A stretch of 51,477 nucleotides of DNA, taken from a virus. Shown one piece after another: positions 18,101 through 36,135 of this stretch (position 1 is the first letter of the stretch; each line of letters starts with the position of its first letter). The DNA lies in IMG/VR virus record IMGVR_UViG_3300011113_000512, positions 1-51,477 of that record, one strand, 5' to 3'. The notes below the pieces were generated by a model. It was given only the letters and a program-made list of their open reading frames with translations. It ran no database searches and had not been told where the DNA came from. The position numbers were made by a program, and so were the translations under genes.

Positions 18101-19633
18101 ATGACAGACATCACAAGGTTCAAGGCGATCTTCAGTGGGTTGGATATCGCCTATGGAACATACAAAATTAAGGCAGAGCGTGGGGACGGAAAACAAGCAG
18201 GACAGGCCACGGTTGTGCGAAAGCCGCCAGTCGATGAGTTATGGGTCAAGCACCTTGAAGGCATTGAACCAAGTCTTGGAATTATCCCAATCAGGGCTGA
18301 TAACACCTGCATCTGGGGCTGTATTGACGTTGACCAGTATCCTCTGGACCTCAAGGGCCTAGTCGAGCGTGTTGCGCAGCTTAAGCTGCCGCTGGTTGTA
18401 TGCAGAAGTAAGTCAGGAGGTGCCCATGTATTCCTATTTACAAAAACGCCTGTTCCGGCCCGAGATTTCCAAACGTATCTCAAGAATGCGGCTGCACTGC
18501 TTGGTGAAGCGGGCAGAGAAATCTTTCCCAAGCAAGCCGAAATCCTTGTTGATAGAGGAGACACCGGCAACTTCCTCAACCTTCCGTACTTCGGCGGCGA
18601 GAATGGTCTCCGCTACGCAGTCAACCCAGACGGGACTGCGGCAACTATGGAAGAGTTCTATGCTCTGTACGATGCAGCGGTCCAAGACGTACCTCTCAAT
18701 TTCCCAGAGCCGCCTAAGCAGGTTGAGAGTCCCATCAAAGATGGCCCGCCATGTCTACAGGCACTATGCGCCCAAGGGTTCCCGGAGGGCACCCGCAATA
18801 ATGGACTATTCAACATTGGCGTCTACCTTAAGAAGGTCCACGCAGTGGGCTGGGAAGACAAGATGGTTGAATACAACTACAAATATGTGGCTCCCCCTCT
18901 GCCCAACAACGAAGTCCAACTTCTGGTCAAGCAGGTTGGCAAAAAAGAGTACCACTACAAGTGCAAGGACGCGCCGCTCAACTCCTTTTGCAACTCCGGC
19001 CTTTGCCGCACTCGCAAATTCGGTATCGGAGCCGCTGCCCCTGATGCGCCTCAGATAGCAAGCCTATCAAAGTACGCCAGTGAGCCGCCGCTGTGGTTCC
19101 TCGATGTCAACGGTCGCCGCATCGAGTTGGATACCGATAGCTTGTACATGCAAGCTGCCTTCCAGAAGGCCTGCCTTGAGCGCTTGAACATCGTGCCGCC
19201 TACCCTGCGCAAACAGGACTGGGAGAATCTTCTCAATGCCCTGCTCAAAGAGATGGTGGAGACTGAGCAGATCACCGAGGCCAGCGAAGACACCAGCGTC
19301 ACCGGTCGCTTTATGGACCTGCTGGAAGAGTTCACTGCCCACATGCAGCAGGCCCTGGTGCGCGATGAGATCATCATGGGCAGGCCATGGACGGATGAAG
19401 ACGAGGCCCGCACCTACTTCCGTATGAAAGACCTTGAGGCACACCTCAAGCGCAACAACTTCGTTGGCCTGTCGGCGCCCAAGATGGCACAGCGTCTGCG
19501 TGACATGGGCGGCGAGCCCATCAGCCTGTTCTTGAAGAATCGCACCGTGCGCTGCTGGCGCATTCCCCGTTTTGAGAGACAAGACGCTCCGTTTGAGACC
19601 CAAACTGTGCGAGAGCAAGGGAGCCCGTTTTAA
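18101..19633 (+). CDS. Archaeo-eukaryotic-type primase (TOTE-type AEP), 510 aa
   Basis: Primase of the AEP superfamily, resembling the AEP domain of TOTE conflict systems. Motif I is CIDVDQYP (D76, D78). Motif II is SKSGGAHVFLF (H109). Motif III is E147-ILVD151 followed by GNFLNLPYFGG. A PriCT-like region follows (PPCLQALCAQGFPEG, then TRNNGLFNIGVYLKK). Cysteines at about 288, 297 and 302 may bind zinc. The C-terminal 150 residues are helical. It probably makes primers for the family A polymerase encoded downstream; no DnaG-type primase or replicative DnaB helicase is visible in the window. Confidence 0.88.
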   Translation: MTDITRFKAIFSGLDIAYGTYKIKAERGDGKQAGQATVVRKPPVDELWVKHLEGIEPSLGIIPIRADNTCIWGCIDVDQYPLDLKGLVERVAQLKLPLVVCRSKSGGAHVFLFTKTPVPARDFQTYLKNAAALLGEAGREIFPKQAEILVDRGDTGNFLNLPYFGGENGLRYAVNPDGTAATMEEFYALYDAAVQDVPLNFPEPPKQVESPIKDGPPCLQALCAQGFPEGTRNNGLFNIGVYLKKVHAVGWEDKMVEYNYKYVAPPLPNNEVQLLVKQVGKKEYHYKCKDAPLNSFCNSGLCRTRKFGIGAAAPDAPQIASLSKYASEPPLWFLDVNGRRIELDTDSLYMQAAFQKACLERLNIVPPTLRKQDWENLLNALLKEMVETEQITEASEDTSVTGRFMDLLEEFTAHMQQALVRDEIIMGRPWTDEDEARTYFRMKDLEAHLKRNNFVGLSAPKMAQRLRDMGGEPISLFLKNRTVRCWRIPRFERQDAPFETQTVREQGSPF

Positions 19634-19635
19634 TG

Positions 19636-19641
19636 TACACT
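19636..19641 (+). promoter_or_regulatory. Weak -10-like TACACT upstream of the HNH gene
   Basis: TACACT preceded by ATG, as in this phage's other TACACT promoters, about 90 nt before the HNH start. No acceptable -35 is seen 16-18 nt upstream, so it is only a weak candidate. Confidence 0.2.
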
Positions 19642-19731
19642 GGTCAAGGCCTAGCTCGACGGAGCGAAAAGCAGTATCCCTTGCTGTCTGGCCAACCTCT
19701 CTTTAAGGGCTGTTTTGTAAAGGGCAAAACA

Positions 19732-20136
19732 ATGACTGCCAAGCTCTGTGAGTGTGGCTGTGGGATGCCAACTCCCATTGCAATTCGCACACGAACTATC
19801 CGAGGCCAGACGAAGGGCGAGCCCCTTCGTTTTATCAGTGGCCACAATTCCCGCCTTCTTTCTTCCGAAGAACAGCGACGACGAAATTCTTTTCGCGACA
19901 GCAGTCTCGAACGCTATACCGGACAGCGATCAAACTACGTCAAGTTGAATGGCCGTCACATGCATCGAGTGATAGCCGAACAGAAACTTAACCGCCCATT
20001 GGAATTTGGGGAAATCGTCCACCATAAAGACGGCGACAAGTGGAATAACGACCCAGACAACCTTGAGGTGATGACACAGGCCGAGCATGCTCGACTGCAT
20101 ACCCTTGAGCGCTGGGCCAAAGAAGGACAACAATGA
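19732..20136 (+). CDS. HNH homing-type endonuclease, 134 aa
   Basis: Start at ATG 19732 after AAAGGG. The N-terminus CECGCGMPTP is a small zinc-knuckle-like cysteine cluster. The HNH core is EFGEIVHHKDGDKWNNDPDN followed by LEVMTQAEHARLH (His-His, Asn, His in order). It stands alone between the primase and UvrD-like genes, and its stop overlaps the helicase ATG (ATGA). Free-standing HNH genes in phages usually behave as mobile homing elements. The adjacent helicase is disrupted in its P-loop, which may be linked. Confidence 0.88.
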   Translation: MTAKLCECGCGMPTPIAIRTRTIRGQTKGEPLRFISGHNSRLLSSEEQRRRNSFRDSSLERYTGQRSNYVKLNGRHMHRVIAEQKLNRPLEFGEIVHHKDGDKWNNDPDNLEVMTQAEHARLHTLERWAKEGQQ

Positions 20137-28341: not shown

Positions 28342-28538
28342 GACAACTTCCTCCAAAACCACTGACCAAGGGTCAGACGCGGCTGCTTGTTGAGCAACGC
28401 CGTCTGAATGTCATACGCATCACGGCTCGGCTCCCACCGCTGCCGAGGCACGTAGGCAACACCAATCTCCACTTTTCCCGTGTTGTACGGGGCAGGACGG
28501 GGGGTAGAGACCCGCCGCTTGAACTCAGTGATGTCCAT
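28338..28538 (-). CDS. Hypothetical small protein, 66 aa
   Basis: GGAGG lies 8 nt before ATG 28538; the longer frame upstream is an out-of-frame shadow of its neighbour. Begins MDITEFKRRVSTPRPAPYNT and includes GVAYVPRQRWEPSRDAYDIQ, ending with GQWFWRKLS. No function recognised. Confidence 0.68.
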   Translation of the reverse strand: MDITEFKRRVSTPRPAPYNTGKVEIGVAYVPRQRWEPSRDAYDIQTALLNKQPRLTLGQWFWRKLS

Positions 28539-28782
28539 GCTTGACCTCCGCACCAATGTCCAAGGCCAACGGGTCAAGGTCCTCGTACGCCGCCTTAACG
28601 CCGTCCAACAAAACCTGAACCGGCATGCGTGCGCCTTTGGCCAAGACCGCAACTGCGATGATGGTCGCGAACAGGGCCTCAGGAGGAGTAGCAAAGTGTT
28701 CAGATAGGAATTCCATGACAAACTTGGCATCTTGCAAGATTGGGTCAGGAACGGGGTGGGATTTACTCTCAGTGTCGTCCAT
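28525..28782 (-). CDS. First gene of the minus-strand early operon, 85 aa
   Basis: The leader carries ACAGAAAGGATAGA before the ATG, the same SD block used by the plus-strand cassettes at 30.6-34.1 kb. The protein is helical (KFVMEFLSEHFATPPEALFA and AVLAKGARMPVQVLLDGVKA). Nothing indicates a function. As the promoter-proximal gene it is probably expressed early. Confidence 0.7.
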   Translation of the reverse strand: MDDTESKSHPVPDPILQDAKFVMEFLSEHFATPPEALFATIIAVAVLAKGARMPVQVLLDGVKAAYEDLDPLALDIGAEVKHGHH

Positions 28783-29009
28783 GGTTTCTATCCTTTCTGT
28801 GGATATCTGTTGATTAGGTCGCGTAGTCTAGCCTACATCATCGTACATAGGTTAGGAAACGTGAATAAAAGTATTGGGAGTTTCCCTAGGTTTGAGGTGG
28901 GCTTATAACGGATCACGGACCAAGGACCGGGGTCTTATGCTTTTTTTGAGGGGCCTATAGAGTTTTTTAGGACGAGTGTGTTTTTGAAATTTTTTTTGTG
29001 AGATTGGGC

Positions 29010-29251: not shown

Positions 29252-29467
29252 GTGTTACAGATTGAGCAGGGAATTGTTATGCCCTCGACGCGAACGAAGT
29301 ACCCGTTCTTGGACATGGAGCCTGGGGACAGCATCTTGCTTACGTCCAAGGCACAGGCAGACTCTGCCCGGGTGGCCTCGATTCGTTTCGTGAAGGTGCA
29401 TCGCCCCGATTGGTCGTTCGTGCTGCGCAAGGTCGAGAACGGCTGGCGCCTGTGGAGGAAGGACTGA
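29252..29467 (+). CDS. Small protein, 71 aa, GTG start
   Basis: GAGGAG lies 6 nt before GTG. Contains TKYPFLDMEPGDSILLTSKA, then FVLRKVENGWRLWRKD. It is paralogous to the minus-strand 68-aa gene at 27556 (KYPFxxMxxGDS). Stop and next start overlap as TGATG, so it is coupled to the small terminase gene. Unknown role; possibly a small nucleic-acid-binding domain. Confidence 0.75.
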   Translation: MLQIEQGIVMPSTRTKYPFLDMEPGDSILLTSKAQADSARVASIRFVKVHRPDWSFVLRKVENGWRLWRKD

Positions 29468-30141
29468 TGACCAAAAAAGATGTCTGGAATGTGCCCCCGG
29501 TGACCCCGGACAAGGCCCGGACACGCATGTCGAGAGAAGTAGCCCCGCTGCGCAAGCAAAAGACCCTCAAGGCCAAGGAATGGAAGTTCGTGACTGAGCT
29601 TGTTGCTGGCGATGGCCGCGTGACCCTGAAGGAAGCCGCTATCCGTGCCGGGTACAAGGAAACGTCCGCCTCTGTGATGGCCTGGAAGCTTACGAACCCT
29701 GAGATCAACCCTCATGTGGTCGCCGCGATTCAGGAGTACCGCGCTCAACTCAATTCGAAGTACAACACCAGTTACGAGCGGCACATGCGGGACCTGCAGC
29801 TAATCCGAGACAAGGCCTTGGAGGCTGGGGCATATGCTGCCGCCGTGCAGGCAGAGTATCGCAGGGGGCAGGCCTTGGGCACAATCTACGTTGATCGTAA
29901 GGAAATCAGGCACGGGACAATTGACTCCATGTCGAAGGAAGAGGTCCAGCGAAAGCTTGACGAACTGCGTAAGCTTTACGGGGGCCCACCGCCTACCGCC
30001 TTAATCGACGCCAGTACAGGGGCAGTGATTGAAAGTGTCGAACGCGATAGGGACCCGGCTTTTGTCTCTCCGGTGGCAGAACCTCCCCCGGATATCTTCG
30101 AACGCGACAATGATTTGGGACCCGACGATGGCAACACCTGA
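29467..30141 (+). CDS. terS: Terminase small subunit, 224 aa
   Basis: Start at ATG 29467 after GGAGGAAGG. The N-terminal half carries the Terminase_2-type helix-turn-helix: EWKFVTELVAGDGRVTLKEA, then AIRAGYKETSASVMAWKLTN. A helical oligomerisation region (YERHMRDLQLIRDKALEAGA) follows, with a Pro-rich acidic tail. It recognises phage DNA for packaging and partners the large subunit 5 kb downstream, an unusually distant arrangement with a cassette array in between. Confidence 0.88.
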   Translation: MTKKDVWNVPPVTPDKARTRMSREVAPLRKQKTLKAKEWKFVTELVAGDGRVTLKEAAIRAGYKETSASVMAWKLTNPEINPHVVAAIQEYRAQLNSKYNTSYERHMRDLQLIRDKALEAGAYAAAVQAEYRRGQALGTIYVDRKEIRHGTIDSMSKEEVQRKLDELRKLYGGPPPTALIDASTGAVIESVERDRDPAFVSPVAEPPPDIFERDNDLGPDDGNT

Positions 30142-30557: not shown

Positions 30558-30630
30558 TTGGACCGGATGCGACATCGGGCCATAATAGTTGCTCCGATTC
30601 AACGGAAACCACCAAGAAAGGATAGAGAAA
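30558..30630 (+). promoter_or_regulatory. Leader module 1 (promoter, hairpin, SD)
   Basis: TTGGAC (30558-30563), 17-nt spacer, CATAAT (30581-30586), a small hairpin TCCG-ATTCAA-CGGA (30593-30606), AACC, then AGAAAGGATAGAG (30615-30627) before the ATG. First and weakest member of the leader series. Confidence 0.65.
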
Positions 30631-31326
30631 ATGCTCAAGACTGTTGCTGTATCTTCGAACCGGAAAACCGGCCCAATTGCTGTTACGTATCGCAGTGGGG
30701 AACATGAGACCTATGGCACATGCCCGAAAACGTGCAAGCTGCACCCCAAAAGTGAAACCGGCGCCGATACTGTAGACCCGGATTATTTGCAGGCCATGCT
30801 TGAATCGGTGCCGCCCCGGGGCATCGCTTGGACTTATTCCCATTTCCACCACCGGGTTATCCCATTGGCCAAGCCGGGCCAGACCGTGATTAATGCGTCA
30901 TGCGATACGGTGGCGGATGCTGTCGCTTCGGCTAAGTCGGGGCGCCCGACCGTGTTGGCTGCTGCAAAAGATACCGCCGAACAATGGCCGATGGTGTCCG
31001 ATGGTGTCAAGTTCTACCGGTGCCCCGCTGAGTTGTCCGATTCGTTTACATGTGCCCAGTGTGGCAATGGGTCTCCCCTTTGCGCCCGACCGAACCGGCA
31101 GGAAGTGATCGTTTTTGTTGCCCATGGTTCAGGGGCTAAAAAAGTCGGCACGGCGGACGGTGGCGGCTGCTATGCGGCATCGGGCCCGACCGCTATACAG
31201 TGGCACAAAACCCGCACCGATGGCGCCGCCAATGATGGGCAAGCTTTGCGCCGCTTTGCTCGGTCTCTTCCGCCCGGTTCTATGCTGCGCCATCATGTGG
31301 CAGGCGATATCGGGAGGGCCAGCTGA
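30631..31326 (+). CDS. Cysteine-rich conserved protein, 231 aa
   Basis: Start at ATG 30631 directly after the SD block. N-terminal NRKTGPIAVTYRSGEHETYG is followed by CPKTCKLHP, then a core with GIAWTYSHFHHRVIPLAKPG and NASCDT. A C-x-x-C pair (TCAQCGNGSPLCARPNRQEV) leads to VIVFVAHGSGAKK. Similar proteins occur in phages and plasmids, and I recall them only as a DUF. The Cys and His clusters suggest metal binding. Function unknown. Confidence 0.78.
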   Translation: MLKTVAVSSNRKTGPIAVTYRSGEHETYGTCPKTCKLHPKSETGADTVDPDYLQAMLESVPPRGIAWTYSHFHHRVIPLAKPGQTVINASCDTVADAVASAKSGRPTVLAAAKDTAEQWPMVSDGVKFYRCPAELSDSFTCAQCGNGSPLCARPNRQEVIVFVAHGSGAKKVGTADGGGCYAASGPTAIQWHKTRTDGAANDGQALRRFARSLPPGSMLRHHVAGDIGRAS

Positions 31327-31394
31327 TGTTCATGGTTCTGCTGCTGTTTATAGTGGCATGGTATCTAATCGATAAGCTTGGCAATTGGAAGTAA
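31326..31394 (+). CDS. Predicted single-span membrane micropeptide, 22 aa
   Basis: ATG overlaps the previous stop (TGATG). The peptide is a hydrophobic helix (FMVLLLFIVAWYLI) ending in DKLGNWK. It could be a holin-like or membrane micropeptide, but its small size allows chance. Confidence 0.45.
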   Translation: MFMVLLLFIVAWYLIDKLGNWK

Positions 31395-31415
31395 AAACGC
31401 GATAGAAAAAAACAA

Positions 31416-31496
31416 TTAGACCGGCCTGAATTTAGGCCTACAATTCACCCAGTCCCGCAGCAATCCCGCATCGGGCAAACCAGAGAGGATAGAGAA
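31416..31496 (+). promoter_or_regulatory. Leader module 2
   Basis: TTAGAC (31416-31421), 17-nt spacer containing the palindrome GGCCT-GAATTT-AGGCC, TACAAT (31439-31444), short hairpin CCCG-CAT-CGGG (31465-31475), AAACC, AGAGAGGATAGAG (31482-31494), then ATG 31497. Confidence 0.7.
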
Positions 31497-32453
31497 ATGG
31501 CACATATGATCGACACCACCACCGGCACCGCAGCGATAGCTTACGTAGGGCAAAAACCCTGGCATGGCCTTGGGCAGGAACTGACCCCGGGCGCTTCAAT
31601 TGACGAATGGACCCGGCAGGCAGGCTTGGCCTATACCGTGCTCGAAAGCCCGGTTTTGTATAGGACCGAAGCCGCCAGCGAGCCGGAGGTTTTCAAAGGC
31701 CGCAAAGTATTGCACCGCAGCGACACCGGCGGCGCCTTGTCCGTTGTCTCTGACGGTTACCGTACGGTTCAACCCGCCGAGGTTATGGGCTTTTTTGGCA
31801 AGCTTTCGGAGATCGGCGGTTTTGAGATCGAGACCGCCGGAGCGCTTAGCCATGGGCGCCGCATTTGGGCGCTGGCCCGGGTCAATCAAGGCGCCGATGT
31901 AATCGACGGGGACCGCGTGCGGCCCTTTCTCTTGCTGGCCACTTCCTATGATGGGACCATGGCCACTACTGCGAAATTCACCGCCGTTCGGGCAGTGTGC
32001 AATAACACTGTGATCCGGGCCCTTGGTGATGGGAATGGCGATGTCCGGGTTCTGCACAGTGAGCGCTTCGATGCTGACAAAGTCCGGATGGAACTGGGCA
32101 TTGTCGCGGATAGCTGGGAGCGCTTTTTACTTGAAAGCCGGGCACTGGCCGGGCAGGCCATGAGCGCCGAAGCCGCCGACGAATTTGTGCAGGCACTGCT
32201 CGAGCCTTACCATACAGGCCGCATCGAGATTAGCGAGAGCAAAGCATACCGCCGCATCATGGACCTATTTAAGGGCGCCGCTATCGGTTCGGAGATATCC
32301 GGGGTTATGGGCACGCGCTGGGGCATGCTTAACGCAGTCACGGAATTGATAGACCACGAGCGAGGCCGCAGCAACAGCACCCGCATTGAGTCCGCATGGT
32401 TTGGAACTGGTTCGGCTATCAAAAACCGGGCAATGGAACTGCTTAGCGCTTAA
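31497..32453 (+). CDS. DUF932 / TIGR03299 phage-plasmid-like protein, 318 aa
   Basis: Clear DUF932 family pattern: PWHGLG near the start, LSVVSDGYRTVQPAEVMGFF, then FLLLATSYDGTMATTAKFTA and AVCNNTV. The length matches the family. Found in many phages and plasmids, with function unresolved. Its promoter and leader are independent of the upstream gene. Confidence 0.9.
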   Translation: MAHMIDTTTGTAAIAYVGQKPWHGLGQELTPGASIDEWTRQAGLAYTVLESPVLYRTEAASEPEVFKGRKVLHRSDTGGALSVVSDGYRTVQPAEVMGFFGKLSEIGGFEIETAGALSHGRRIWALARVNQGADVIDGDRVRPFLLLATSYDGTMATTAKFTAVRAVCNNTVIRALGDGNGDVRVLHSERFDADKVRMELGIVADSWERFLLESRALAGQAMSAEAADEFVQALLEPYHTGRIEISESKAYRRIMDLFKGAAIGSEISGVMGTRWGMLNAVTELIDHERGRSNSTRIESAWFGTGSAIKNRAMELLSA

Positions 32454-32613
32454 CTATTCCAAAAACCCGGGCTTATCCCCGGGTCTCACTGGGCAGTTTT
32501 CCATTTTCCGCAAAAATGCCCGGTTAGCTTTGCAGGGGGAAACCGGGCCCCCGGTCCCTGCCGCTCGGCGCCTAAAACGTGGCCCGGGGTGCTCGGCCCG
32601 GGGCCGGTGCCCC

Positions 32614-32642
32614 GGGAAACCCGGCCGAAGGCCGGGTTTCCC
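32614..32642 (+). terminator. 13-bp hairpin with GAA loop, possible terminator or barrier
   Basis: GGGAAACCCGGCC (32614-32626), loop GAA, GGCCGGGTTTCCC (32630-32642). No T-tract follows, so classical termination is doubtful. Confidence 0.5.
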
Positions 32643-32667
32643 CTAATAGCAGGGCCCGAATTTGAAC

Positions 32668-32750
32668 TATAATTGACGGACCGGGGCACAAGGGCCCCGG
32701 GTAACCCAAGCCGGGGCACAAGGGCCCCGGCTAACCTAGAGAGGATAGAG
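32668..32750 (+). promoter_or_regulatory. Leader module 3 with duplicated hairpin
   Basis: TATAAT (32668-32673) with no good -35. Two tandem hairpins follow, CCGGGGC-ACAAGG-GCCCCGG (32681-32700) and GCCGGGGC-ACAAGG-GCCCCGGC (32710-32731), each followed by TAACC. AGAGAGGATAGAG (32738-32750) directly precedes the ATG. Confidence 0.75.
32681..32736 (+). repeat. Two tandem 30-bp hairpin-TAACC units
   Basis: 32681-32706 and 32711-32736 match almost fully (ccggggcacaagggccccgg, then taacc). This is the only leader in the series with the hairpin duplicated. Confidence 0.85.
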
Positions 32751-32990
32751 ATGCAACACGTAGCACGCGATGGCTGGACCCTAGTCCGGTCCGACACGAA
32801 GGCCCCGGTTTGCCGGGGTGATGCTGTTACCAGTGGCCGAGGGGAACCGGCCACTGTAGAGGGCGGAGCCCCGCCCCATAAACCGGCCAGTACTGGCCGC
32901 GTGTATGTGGTGGAAGCCCCGGACGGCTCCCGGTTTGCCCGGGAATATTTCCCCAGCGTGTTTGGGCTTGAGTGGATCAGGGGGGCTTGA
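32751..32990 (+). CDS. Hypothetical cassette protein, 79 aa
   Basis: ATG 32751 follows the SD block directly. Begins MQHVARDGWTLVRSDTKAPV and ends with FPSVFGLEWIRGA. Small, with a glycine-rich middle. No family I can name with confidence. Confidence 0.72.
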   Translation: MQHVARDGWTLVRSDTKAPVCRGDAVTSGRGEPATVEGGAPPHKPASTGRVYVVEAPDGSRFAREYFPSVFGLEWIRGA

Positions 32991-32992
32991 TC

Positions 32993-33253
32993 ATGCATAT
33001 TTCGCAATTGGCTCTGGCGGTCATTCATGACCGCAGCACCGAAGAGGACCGGGCCCGGGCTTTTCGCCTGTCCCTGATGACCAGTCGGCCCGCCGCCGTG
33101 CTGACCCTGATGCCCGCCGTTTACGCGGAACTGGACAAGCCCATTTATGATGGGGTCACGTTTACCAACGATAAAGGGGAGGATGCCTCCTGCTGGGAGG
33201 CCGGGGAAATAATCCTGCAGGCCGAAATTGATCGGGCTATGGTTTTTGATTGA
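32993..33253 (+). CDS. Hypothetical cassette protein, 86 aa
   Basis: Starts at ATG 32993 after GGGGGG. It has no leader module of its own and is co-transcribed with the previous gene. Sequence: HISQLALAVIHDRSTEEDRA, followed by a helical core and ILQAEIDRAMVFD. No function recognised. Confidence 0.7.
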   Translation: MHISQLALAVIHDRSTEEDRARAFRLSLMTSRPAAVLTLMPAVYAELDKPIYDGVTFTNDKGEDASCWEAGEIILQAEIDRAMVFD

Positions 33254-33262
33254 AAAAAACAA

Positions 33263-33342
33263 TTGGATAACCGGGGCCCGGCCCCGGTTATAATGTTCTC
33301 ACTGCGGCACGGGGCCGCAGTCAACCTAGAAAGGATAGAGTT
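33263..33342 (+). promoter_or_regulatory. Leader module 4
   Basis: TTGGAT (33263-33268), a 20-nt spacer forming the palindrome AACCGGGGC-CCG-GCCCCGGTT, TATAAT (33289-33294), hairpin ACTGCGGC-ACGGG-GCCGCAGT (33301-33321), CAACC, AGAAAGGATAGAG (33328-33340), then ATG 33343. Confidence 0.75.
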
Positions 33343-33579
33343 ATGAAGGACCGTTTTTATCTCCGCATCGGTGACGACACCCTTGAAGAGGCCGCTGGGT
33401 TTCTTACCCGTGCCGCTGCGGTGCGTGAGTTCCAGATTGTTGCCACTGAATTGTGGGGCTTTGGCCAGCGCCTCGAGGCCACTCTGCACCGGGCCCCGGA
33501 CCGTGAGCACGTAGCAGAGTACCCCGACTGGGTGCTGAGTATTGGCCCTAGGGGCGGCGTGGTTGTTGACCGCGCCTAG
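33343..33579 (+). CDS. Hypothetical cassette protein, 78 aa
   Basis: Begins MKDRFYLRIGDDTLEEAAGF and ends with YPDWVLSIGPRGGVVVDRA. Small alpha/beta protein. The -35 of the next module lies within its 3' end. No function recognised. Confidence 0.72.
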   Translation: MKDRFYLRIGDDTLEEAAGFLTRAAAVREFQIVATELWGFGQRLEATLHRAPDREHVAEYPDWVLSIGPRGGVVVDRA

Positions 33580-33643
33580 AATTCTGAACTATAATTGCAG
33601 CACCGCAGCGCCCGCTGCGGTCAACCACAGAAAGGATAGAGTC
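33566..33643 (+). promoter_or_regulatory. Leader module 5
   Basis: TTGACC (33566-33571), 18-nt spacer, TATAAT (33590-33595), hairpin ACCGCAGC-GCCC-GCTGCGGT (33602-33621), CAACC, AGAAAGGATAGAG (33629-33641), then ATG 33644. Confidence 0.78.
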
Positions 33644-33994
33644 ATGACAATCGAAACTGCAGTCCCCTCGAGCGCCGAAACCCTGGCCGCATTGTTTGAT
33701 CAACTAGTTGAGGCCGTAGCCCAGCGGGTCAAAATCCACCTGACTGGCCCAGTATTTGAGTCGCACGTTAAAGCCGCCCTGGTCAACCTCGACATGGATA
33801 GCCAGATCGGCAACGCCGCCCGGGCCGAGATTGAAGCATGGGCGGATGACCACCTGAATGACCGCCTGGACTACTGGGCCACGTACAGGCTCGATCTTTC
33901 CCACGCAATTAAGGAGGCGCTGAACGACATAGACCTAAGTGACACGGTTAAGGACGTAGTCCAGGACCTGACATTCGAAGTAACAGTCAGTTAA
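33644..33994 (+). CDS. Hypothetical acidic cassette protein, 116 aa
   Basis: Start ATG 33644 after the SD block; the longer frame from 33542 overlaps the previous gene. Helical acidic protein (TLAALFDQLVEAVAQRVKIH, then HLNDRLDYWATYRLDLSHAI). Negative charge could mimic DNA, but this is only a thought. Confidence 0.75.
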   Translation: MTIETAVPSSAETLAALFDQLVEAVAQRVKIHLTGPVFESHVKAALVNLDMDSQIGNAARAEIEAWADDHLNDRLDYWATYRLDLSHAIKEALNDIDLSDTVKDVVQDLTFEVTVS

Positions 33995-34000
33995 AAATAG

Positions 34001-34082
34001 TTGACGCACCGGTGCAAACCGGTGCTATAATGTTCACACTGCAGCACGGTGCTGCAGTCAACCCTAGAAAGGATAGAGAGAG
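34001..34082 (+). promoter_or_regulatory. Leader module 6
   Basis: TTGACG (34001-34006), a 19-nt spacer holding the palindrome GCACCGGTGC and a second ACCGGTGC, TATAAT (34026-34031), hairpin ACTGCAGC-ACGGT-GCTGCAGT (34038-34058), CAACC, AGAAAGGATAGAG (34066-34078), then ATG 34083. Confidence 0.78.
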
Positions 34083-34361
34083 ATGAACAAGATGATCACC
34101 ATCGACGGCAACCGGTACGTTCTGCCTGAGGCCATGACCCAGAAGGACATCCAGACTCTGGCAGGTCTGCTGGTTACCCTGGTCCGCATCGACTACGAGT
34201 ACTGCTACGGTGAAGATGATAGCCAGCACTATGCAGTCAACGGCGCAGCCGTTAGCATCGGTCAAGTGGAACTGGTGACCAGGGCTGAGGCCAAGGCAGC
34301 AGCAGAGAAGAGCCGCCAAAAGTACGAGGCCAAGAAAGCCGCAGAGAAGGCAGCCGCCTGA
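34083..34361 (+). CDS. Hypothetical cassette protein, 92 aa
   Basis: Starts MNKMITIDGNRYVLPEAMTQ. Beta-rich first half, then an Ala/Lys-rich helical tail (AEAKAAAEKSRQKYEAKKAA). Last gene of the cassette series. No function recognised. Confidence 0.74.
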   Translation: MNKMITIDGNRYVLPEAMTQKDIQTLAGLLVTLVRIDYEYCYGEDDSQHYAVNGAAVSIGQVELVTRAEAKAAAEKSRQKYEAKKAAEKAAA

Positions 34362-34671
34362 TCACGCACCTGGGCCGCGAGGCCCAGTAACCCAGCAGGG
34401 CAGCGGCGCTGCCCTGCTATCCCGCGCCCCGCCCCCGCGCATAAGTCAACAGGGTTTACCCTGCTTGACAGCCGCGTCCGCCGAAGGCGGACGCGGGGGC
34501 AGAGACATAGGGGTCAGCCTTAGAGGGGGAGGGCCATAAACAGCCCGTTAAGCGGAGCGAGCGCCCCTATCCCGATTTTTGTCCAAGGAAAACCTCCTTG
34601 AAACTTGACCCCCGGGCCATGAAACACCCCCCTTGTTCCAAAAAACGCAAACCGGGGGTATATTTGCGCAC
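34362..34671 (+). other. Gene-free hairpin array before terL
   Basis: Holds, in order: CTGGGCC-GCGA-GGCCCAG (34370-34387) followed by TAACCC; an 11-bp stem AGCAGGGCAGC-GGC-GCTGCCCTGCT (34394-34418); GTCAACAGGG-TTTA-CCCTG-c-TTGAC (34445-34469); an 11-bp stem CCGCGTCCGCC-GAA-GGCGGACGCGG (34472-34496); and AAGGA-AAACC-TCCTT (about 34566-34580). No gene seen. It could hold a terminator, packaging site or regulatory element. Confidence 0.8.
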
Positions 34672-36135
34672 ATGTCAAAACCTAGTGAAATCGAAGAAGA
34701 ACAGCTTCGCCTGGAGTTACGCCTGAAATGGCTGGAGGCCCAGGAGCGTGCAACTGGAAACTTCCTCGACTTTTGTCGATACGTCTGGCCGGAGATGTTG
34801 GTTGGTGAGCACCATCGGCGTATTGCCAAAGCCCTGGACCGTGTTGTGTCAGGCGAGTGCAAGCGCCTGATGATCGCGATGCCTCCTCGGCACGGCAAGA
34901 GCCAGATGGGCAGTTACTTGTTCCCTGCGTATGTGATGGGCAAGCGCCCCACCTCAAAACTGATCGTGGGCTCGCACACTGCTGAACTTGCGCAGCGTTT
35001 TGGCCGGATGATTAGGAACCTTGTTGACGAGGAGAAGTACAAAGAGCTTTTCCCGAAGATGCAACTGTCTGCGGACAGCAAGGCTGCCGGTCGGTGGAAC
35101 ACGGCCCAAGGCGGGGAAGCCTTCTTCATTGGTAAGGGCGGCGCGATGACTGGTCGCGGCGGCGATATTGTTGTGCTGGACGACATCTTGGACGAGCAGG
35201 ATGCTTTGTCTGAGACAGCGATGGAAAATACGTGGGAGTGGTACACCTCTGGCCCTCGGCAGCGGTTACAGCCCGGTGGCGCAATTATTGTTATCAACAC
35301 ACGATGGAAGACGGACGACTTATCGGGCAGGCTTTTGAAGCAGCAGGGCTACCTCAAGAGCGACCAGTGGGAAGTGCTGGAATTTCCTGCGATCTTGCCT
35401 TCCGGAAATCCATTATGGCCGGGGTACTGGAGCTTAGACGAACTGGAGAAGGTCAAGGTTTCTATTGGGTTGAAAAAGTGGAACGCCCAGTGGCAGCAAC
35501 AGCCGACGAACGACGAGGGGGCGATTCTGAAGAGGAACTGGTGGAGGAAATGGCAGTACGACGAACCACCTCAGTGCGAATATATTTTGCAGTGCTTGGA
35601 CACCGCCTACAGTAAAAAAGAAACGGCGGACTTTTCTGTTATCAGCACCTGGGGCGTATTTACTCCTGATGCGGACTCGGGCCCGAACCTGATGCTGCTC
35701 AATGTGCGCAAGGGCCGCTGGGATTTCCCGGAACTCAAGCGCGTGGCCAAGGACGAGTATCAATACTGGCGCCCGGACAATGTGCTGATTGAGGCCAAGG
35801 CCACTGGCACTCCATTGCAGCAAGAGTTGCGCAGGCTCGGGATCCCCGTTACGATGTTCTCTCCTGGCGGTCGCAAAACCGGGCAAGATAAGATCAGTCG
35901 CGCCAACGCTGTTGCTCCCCTGCTGGAATCGGGGATGGTGTGGTATCCTGAAGGCAAGGAGTGGGCCGAGGATCTTGTTGAGGAATGCGCGGCCTTTCCA
36001 AACGGGAACAATGACGATCAGGTCGATACTGCTGTTATGGCGTGGCACCGTTTCCGGCAGGGCAACTTTATTGCCCTGGACACGGACGACAATGAGGAGC
36101 CCGAGCCCAACACGCAGCCGGTTGAGTATTACTAG
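34672..36135 (+). CDS. terL: Terminase large subunit, 487 aa
   Basis: Packaging motor ATPase-nuclease. Start at ATG 34672 (MSKPSEIEEEQ); the upstream TTG at 34633 has no SD. Walker A is MPPRHGKSQMG (about 70-80) and Walker B is DIVVLDDILDEQ (165-176). The nuclease domain has LDTAYSKKETADFS (D310), IEAKATGTP and the C-terminal NDDQVDTAVMAWH. Length and motif spacing match phage large terminases. It forms the head of the packaging and head block. Confidence 0.93.
   Translation: MSKPSEIEEEQLRLELRLKWLEAQERATGNFLDFCRYVWPEMLVGEHHRRIAKALDRVVSGECKRLMIAMPPRHGKSQMGSYLFPAYVMGKRPTSKLIVGSHTAELAQRFGRMIRNLVDEEKYKELFPKMQLSADSKAAGRWNTAQGGEAFFIGKGGAMTGRGGDIVVLDDILDEQDALSETAMENTWEWYTSGPRQRLQPGGAIIVINTRWKTDDLSGRLLKQQGYLKSDQWEVLEFPAILPSGNPLWPGYWSLDELEKVKVSIGLKKWNAQWQQQPTNDEGAILKRNWWRKWQYDEPPQCEYILQCLDTAYSKKETADFSVISTWGVFTPDADSGPNLMLLNVRKGRWDFPELKRVAKDEYQYWRPDNVLIEAKATGTPLQQELRRLGIPVTMFSPGGRKTGQDKISRANAVAPLLESGMVWYPEGKEWAEDLVEECAAFPNGNNDDQVDTAVMAWHRFRQGNFIALDTDDNEEPEPNTQPVEYY

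Follow-up and report, generated by a model that had tools for sequence, protein, structure and literature searches.

How can six neighboring genes of a phage carry what is recognizably one leader when the hairpins within it differ in sequence from gene to gene? The question is raised by the IMG/VR virus record IMGVR_UViG_3300011113_000512, which we analyzed whole (51,477 bp; hereafter, the window). It comes from a tailed phage whose genes include terminase, portal, head proteins, primase, helicase, and DNA polymerase. The genes for the small (29467-30141) and the large (34633-36135) terminase subunits flank a plus-strand gene array, six members of which have the leader. A first-pass annotation, made from the letters alone, described a repeated promoter, hairpin, and Shine-Dalgarno (SD) leader with changing but paired stems and proposed either a common RNA structure in the 5' untranslated region (UTR) or a binding site for a phage regulator. 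From sequence comparisons, we judge it rather probable that the leader is a portable expression module in which a 5'-terminal hairpin shields the mRNA from decay and is combined with a standard ribosome site.

All six genes are preceded by exact matches to AACC-N0..6-AGARAGGATAGAG (at 30607, 31478, 32733, 33323, 33623, and 34060), as annotated, and 0 such matches were expected from shuffled sequences. The 13-bp box, which contains the SD core, lies 0 to 4 nt ahead of the ATG in these genes and in many relatives. When two mismatches were allowed, 10 boxes were found in the window against 1.25 expected, so chance matches of this kind cannot explain the six exact ones. The remaining parts of the leader are less uniform than had been described. 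The −10 hexamer is exactly TATAAT in four leaders and reads CATAAT in leader 1 and TACAAT in leader 2; likewise, the linker is (C/T)AACC in four leaders and AAACC in leaders 1 and 2. A hairpin had been reported in every leader. It is strong in three (33301-33321, 33602-33621, and 34038-34058), doubled in one (32681-32731), and weak (about 4 bp) before the genes at 30631 and 31497, and the three stem pairs that had been quoted are correct. A simple sigma70 scan was uninformative (4 found versus 3.8 expected). The leader features are as follows, with scores for R1, the covariance model introduced below:

30558-30586, plus strand: leader 1 promoter, with TTGGAC (30558-30563), an imperfect palindromic spacer (30564-30580), and CATAAT (30581-30586)
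30593-30606, plus strand: leader 1 weak hairpin, TCCG-ATTCAA-CGGA, predicted by folding (R1, 27.7 bits)
30615-30627, plus strand: leader 1 start box AGAAAGGATAGAG, with the SD
31423-31438, plus strand: leader 2 spacer palindrome, GGCCT..AGGCC
31439-31494, plus strand: leader 2, with TACAAT (31439), a weak hairpin, and box AGAGAGGATAGAG (31482-31494) (R1, 26.7 bits)
32668-32750, plus strand: leader 3, with TATAAT (32668-32673), hairpins at 32681-32700 and 32710-32731 predicted by folding, and the box (32738-32750) (R1, 47.3 bits)
33289-33340, plus strand: leader 4, with TATAAT (33289), hairpin ACTGCGGC/GCCGCAGT (33301-33321) predicted by folding, AACC, and the box (33328-33340) (R1, 62.1 bits)
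33566-33641, plus strand: leader 5, with TTGACC (33566) within the upstream gene, TATAAT (33590), hairpin ACCGCAGC/GCTGCGGT (33602-33621), and the box (33629-33641) (R1, 61.9 bits)
34026-34078, plus strand: leader 6, with TATAAT (34026), hairpin ACTGCAGCA/TGCTGCAGT (34038-34058), and the box (34066-34078) (R1, 59.3 bits)

The hairpin-TAACC unit of leader 3 (32681-32731) is a tandem duplicate in which CCGGGGCACAAGGGCCCCGG occurs twice, and the TCCG/CGGA stem of leader 1 recurs in two related loci (L126 and L129).

We then looked into whether pairing is conserved among relatives. Queries with the array genes F2 and F3 returned almost no matches, and the loci were instead gathered through the DUF932 gene of the array, which has 238 viral relatives. 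Eighty of these loci contained 2 to 9 sense-strand box-plus-start sites each, with at most 3 mismatches. We picked 70 nonredundant leaders blind to structure, requiring only an exact TATAAT at the right distance and the box. A stem of at least 7 bp was present in 67 of the 70 (96%, versus 6% in shuffles), and one of at least 8 bp was present in 90%. Their MAFFT alignment contained 116 two-sided paired changes versus 49 when shuffled, with a covariation of 0.429 versus 0.164 (0/500 shuffles). The covariance model R1 gave 172 matches in 56 loci, with 171 two-sided changes versus 62 in an alignment that was fitted to the model and included the training sequences. The fairest test was provided by a sister group of 80 other loci around phage DSL-LC04, none of which had been used to build R1; here there were 20 matches, with 91.7% of cells paired and two-sided changes at all 8 pairs (0/500, again in an alignment fitted to the model). 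The covariance search suggested in the first-pass annotation thus found further leaders with compensatory changes. Other leaders of the sister group combine TAAAAT with the box AGAAAGMGAGAA; stems of at least 7 bp occur in 51% of those with a −10, versus 5% in shuffles, and again begin 4 to 7 nt past it. The contigs are redundant, and although identity filters were applied, lineage effects remain in these counts, for which some of the related loci were read. Scanning IMG/VR with the leader pattern gave matches in at least 120 stretches, many with 2 to 5 leaders, some of the matches being coding-sequence coincidences without a hairpin. The leader is present in more than 100 IMG/VR phage contigs and is common to a large group of uncultured aquatic phages, and it had no Rfam family match above the gathering threshold.

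While pairing persists, the stem sequence turns over quickly. Fifteen different hairpins were found before the terminal gene F3. For F3 orthologues with less than 80% protein identity, the resemblance between 5' arms has sunk to the level of unrelated leaders, with pairing kept. Leaders on the same contig are barely more alike than others (2.8 versus 2.4 of 7). These results point to selection acting on the structure of the leader hairpin and not on its sequence, in keeping with the common structured 5' UTR of the first-pass annotation. The same turnover argues against a shared sequence-specific operator: stems differ even between neighboring leaders, and we discarded the proposal of a DNA binding site for one phage regulator.

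The position of the hairpin suggests where it acts. Of 156 nonredundant leaders, 128 have a stem that starts 4 to 8 nt beyond the final base of the −10, with peaks at 6 and 7 nt, and sigma70 transcripts usually start at this distance. In the sister group, the number of distinct hairpins preceding an open reading frame (ORF) drops from 57 at a distance of 4 to 8 nt from the −10 to 13, 1, and 4 in successive windows beyond. The stems thus coincide with the predicted transcript start, and the hairpin most likely forms the very beginning of the RNA. Moreover, the spacing of the hairpin to the −10 is tighter than its spacing to the box, suggesting that the 5' end is its anchor. In folded leaders, the stem has a mean pair probability of 0.92 (median folding free energy, −15 kcal/mol), and its 3' end lies 18 to 29 nt (median, 23) before the AUG. 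The SD region is 0.66 unpaired, compared to 0.62 with a shuffled downstream sequence, a small gain. An RNA thermometer or SD-occluding switch was ruled out, since the SD is outside the stem and the hairpin ends a median of 23 nt before the AUG. An intrinsic terminator or attenuator was ruled out as well, since the hairpins normally have no U-tract; AACC follows the 5' hairpins instead. The stem lies at the predicted start and leaves the SD free. Most likely, then, the leader is an mRNA hairpin at the 5' terminus, a putative stabilizer of the ompA type, joined to a promoter and a standard ribosome site, and this placement favors a role in stability over one in translation.

We propose that each array gene would receive a module of about 75 bp consisting of a sigma70-type promoter, a hairpin, an AACC linker, and the SD box. 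The GC-rich hairpin of 7 to 11 bp would begin at the first transcript nucleotides and work as RNA through its shape rather than its sequence, while the fixed extended SD box, a few nucleotides before the ATG, would keep the ribosome site outside the stem. A hairpin at the extreme 5' end may leave RppH and the 5'-sensing RNase E without unpaired nucleotides to act on there, and a short mRNA would last longer as a result. In line with this, 5'-terminal stem-loops stabilize Escherichia coli messages, and Bacillus subtilis RppH requires unpaired 5' nucleotides (PMC3997798). A second hairpin past the stop codon, mostly without a U-tract, would shield the 3' end and, where genes are tightly packed, would fall inside the −35/−10 spacer of the next promoter. 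A captured gene would then have its own hairpin-bracketed mRNA, independent of its neighbors. As for the host, the 16S rRNA tail of many betaproteobacteria ends in UCCUUUCU, and the initial AGAAAGGA of the box would presumably pair with such a tail, a match that hints at a betaproteobacterial host. Leader anatomy, covariation, hairpin position, and cassette exchange are thus observed, whereas the transcript start, the RNA identity of the hairpin, protection from decay, and the host are inferred.

Several points weigh against this proposal. The weak hairpins of leaders 1 and 2 show that a strong one is not needed everywhere. Some stems begin 1 to 3 nt ahead of the predicted start, an extension that pairing within the RNA cannot by itself account for, and the +1 itself was placed from the position of the −10. 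Departures from Watson-Crick pairing are more often G-U than A-C (20 versus 9; one-sided P value = 0.03), but this is not significant against random stems (P value = 0.12); the excess is only suggestive of a sense-strand RNA, and the RNA nature of the hairpin therefore rests mainly on position. Finally, the RppH and RNase E step presupposes that the host has these decay enzymes.

The second hairpin emerged from the palindromes that had been annotated in the spacers between −35 and −10. These are strong in two leaders (33267-33291 and 34006-34025), weaker in two (31423-31438 and 30564-30580), and absent from leaders 3 and 5. The relevant features are as follows:

33267-33291, plus strand: 11-bp palindrome between the −35 and −10 of leader 4, 13 nt past the upstream stop
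34006-34025, plus strand: spacer palindrome of leader 6, GCACCGGT..ACCGGTGC, 11 nt past the upstream stop
32465-32484, plus strand: stop-proximal 3' hairpin of the DUF932 gene, ACCCGGG..CCCGGGT, without a U-tract
34370-34387, plus strand: 3' hairpin after the last array gene, CTGGGCC-GCGA-GGCCCAG, with no promoter and no U-tract behind it

In the 30 nt before the −10, 22% of leaders hold a stem of 7 bp or more, versus 1.7% of shuffles, and these stems mostly end at the −10. Junctions with 25 to 34 nt from stop to −10 have a palindrome in 19 of 19 cases, starting about 3 to 15 nt past the stop, and promoters that overlap the upstream gene have none. The terminal array gene has a hairpin 2 to 20 nt past its stop in 22 of 22 nonredundant F3 flanks (versus 10% of shuffles). 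Among 28 terminal flanks there are 24 different arms, and in 23 of the 28 the next 8 nt hold at most three T's. Only 3 of 38 other window genes have a stop-proximal hairpin. The spacer palindromes do not resemble a promoter operator. Because their presence tracks the upstream gene, and because the terminal gene has such a hairpin with no promoter behind it, they fit better as a 3' hairpin that belongs to the preceding gene, sits close to its stop codon, and in tight junctions falls within the next promoter. This reading is new relative to the original observation. A stop-proximal hairpin without a U-tract would fit 3'-end protection after Rho-type termination. Noncoding stretches after the DUF932 gene (32454-32660) and after the array (34362-34510) are rich in GC-rich hairpins without U-tracts.

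The genes behind the leaders are as follows:

30631-31326, plus strand: DUF7227 gene (231 aa, F1), near-fixed; Pfam PF23872, 1e-31; 69 loci
31497-32453, plus strand: DUF932 gene (318 aa, F0), near-fixed; Pfam PF06067, 5e-53
32751-32990, plus strand: small cassette gene (79 aa, F17), swapped among genomes
32993-33253, plus strand: second small gene of the F17 cassette, without its own leader
33343-33579, plus strand: small cassette gene (78 aa, F6)
33644-33994, plus strand: small gene F2 (116 aa), near-fixed; 53 loci
34083-34361, plus strand: terminal small gene F3 (92 aa); 45 loci

The description of six small-gene cassettes needs amending, since the DUF7227 and DUF932 proteins are not small and the third cassette has two genes. 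The idea that genes are gained as independent cassettes is borne out. Across loci, 47 gene families were found behind leaders. DUF7227, DUF932, F2, and F3 (sometimes replaced by F9) are near-fixed, and between DUF932 and F2, gene content varies freely from contig to contig, every gene having its own leader. Some array genes are shared with unrelated phages, for example, those for a NinX-type and a DUF6117 protein. In long records, R1 matches are confined to the array and its immediate surroundings. Close DUF932 relatives were not found in the 84,980 species genomes searched, where a single match to the leader pattern was a coincidence in coding sequence that lacks a hairpin; a prophage or host element was rejected on this basis.

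A speculative extension, improbable in our judgment, is that the leader acts as a self-mark: infection would bring broad message decay, driven by phage or host, and array transcripts closed at both ends by hairpins of free sequence would survive. If true, this would be a portable selective-stability code usable by any captured gene, and each 3' hairpin would be nested within the core promoter of the gene that follows.

Other explanations of the leader start from the same anatomy. The hairpin could be the site of a phage or host RNA-binding protein that jointly represses or activates translation of the array genes, as one architecture before all of them, an array limited to one locus, and the frequency of RGCC or CGG loops, in many cases closed by C-G, would allow. 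Yet stem sequences are free, the loops vary both inside a clade and from one clade to another (AGCC, CGG, ATTT, and ATAG), the SD is uncovered, and the hairpin, about 23 nt upstream of the AUG, is off the usual zone of translational repression; no candidate RNA-binding protein turned up, though no systematic search was made. We regard such a site as unlikely. It is quite unlikely that the palindromes act as DNA, that is, as promoter operators or cruciforms (in the spacer and from +1 to +20) governing initiation, as proposed for the extended start-associated sequences (ESAS) of mycobacteriophages. Palindromes do flank the −10 on both sides, perfect ones are symmetrical, and the cluster K ESAS joins a SigA-type promoter with an inverted repeat (PMC11373665), but the palindromes offer no common sequence to a DNA-binding protein, resemble the hairpins that follow the last gene without any promoter, and are missing from the spacer where the promoter overlaps coding sequence; the excess of G-U over A-C departures (20 to 9) also runs against this view. 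Cruciforms recognized by their shape alone keep a small probability.

That the hairpin helps translation instead of stability, by keeping upstream RNA off the SD or as a ribosome standby element, would account for its constant coupling to a fixed SD box, the A-rich linker, and the largely unpaired SD region; given that this openness is hardly greater than with a shuffled downstream sequence and that the hairpin keeps its distance to the −10 more tightly than to the box, we hold this to be very unlikely. We give almost no credence to the possibility that the repeats are kept mainly as homology cassettes for recombination and gene shuffling without a strong expression role, as proposed for the PeSLs discussed below. 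The 47 families and their free exchange between near-fixed anchors are what it would predict, but changing stems reduce homology while pairing stays, the opposite of what recombination needs, and the remaining conserved stretch (the box, about 13 to 18 bp) is short. A 5'-terminal hairpin protecting a short mRNA is thus the reading that we retain. On this reading, more than 100 distinct natural leaders that keep only an RNA shape may make the rules of bacterial 5'-end protection readable from sequence. The locus is also one at which uncultured phages take up small genes without a known function, NinX- and DUF6117-type genes among them.

Some observations concern the surroundings of the array and the sister group. 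The minus-strand gene at 28525-28782 has a related box, AGAAAGGATAGAA, at 28786-28798 (minus strand) with no evident 5' hairpin; its homologues in the same position (F4) are preceded by a box of similar type at 32 loci, and in sister phages a hairpin and a conserved GTTCTTTAAC lie ahead of a minus-strand gene. Directly 3' of the DUF7227 gene, a short hydrophobic ORF of about 22 codons (31327-31395), with seeming counterparts in relatives, may be an unannotated membrane peptide. The Rfam int-alpA RNA (RF02996, 47 bits) matches 19644-19709 (plus strand), over the first codons of an HNH endonuclease ORF (19633-20136) whose real start is probably downstream of the called one. The nearest annotated phage record to the window is DSL-LC04, of the proposed Dishuiviridae, and the paper describing it does not mention promoters or hairpins. 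DSL-LC04-like phages (L005 4060-4110 and L201-L280) have other boxes, ACATACAGGAGAAA and AGAAAGCGAGAA, and, unlike the window clade, in places have U-tract terminators after array genes.

Among known systems, the closest layout is that of the start-associated sequences (SAS) and ESAS of cluster K mycobacteriophages and cluster EF Microbacterium phages (PMC3203893, PMC11373665, PMC7302621), although the leader is not one of them. There, too, a conserved 13-bp SD box lies a few nucleotides before many nonstructural genes of many families, with a promoter and an inverted repeat just upstream and a function that has gone unexplained. The box differs, being AGAAAGGATAGAG in the window as opposed to GGGATAGGAGCCC, the cluster K SAS consensus (PMC3203893), or GGGAAAGGACCCC. 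In addition, the ESAS has 17-bp inverted repeats with a sequence consensus, whereas the window has stems of 7 to 11 bp, free in sequence and placed at the predicted +1. Because pairing is the conserved feature here and the SAS/ESAS authors argue from the departures within their repeats against RNA pairing, we do not class the leader with these elements; start-associated elements, unexplained since 2011, would nevertheless gain, for one phage group or more, an RNA mechanism that can be tested.

The PeSLs, promoter-terminator motifs of T4-like myoviruses (Arbiol 2010 and Comeau 2014, cited in PMC4503421), likewise place a compact promoter and a stem-loop between small exchangeable genes. Their stem-loop is described as a terminator next to an early promoter, whereas the window hairpins normally have no U-tract and the main one follows the promoter in the 5' UTR; their genomes are T4-type, unlike the 51-kb window phage with its phrog_38 terminase and its own DNA polymerase and primase. 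The array also recalls morons in that accessory genes are individually expressed within a phage genome. Morons have their own promoter and terminator and are not known to share one leader design, whereas the window cassettes do. We take the T7 gene 10 leader to have a 5'-terminal stabilizing stem-loop. Such stem-loops are documented for E. coli ompA and papA (PMC3997798). All three resemble the window leaders in having a hairpin at the extreme 5' end (predicted here), a short linker, and an SD; they are single leaders of one gene each, whereas the window hairpin, with its presumed stabilizing role, is a repeated portable module whose stems drift.

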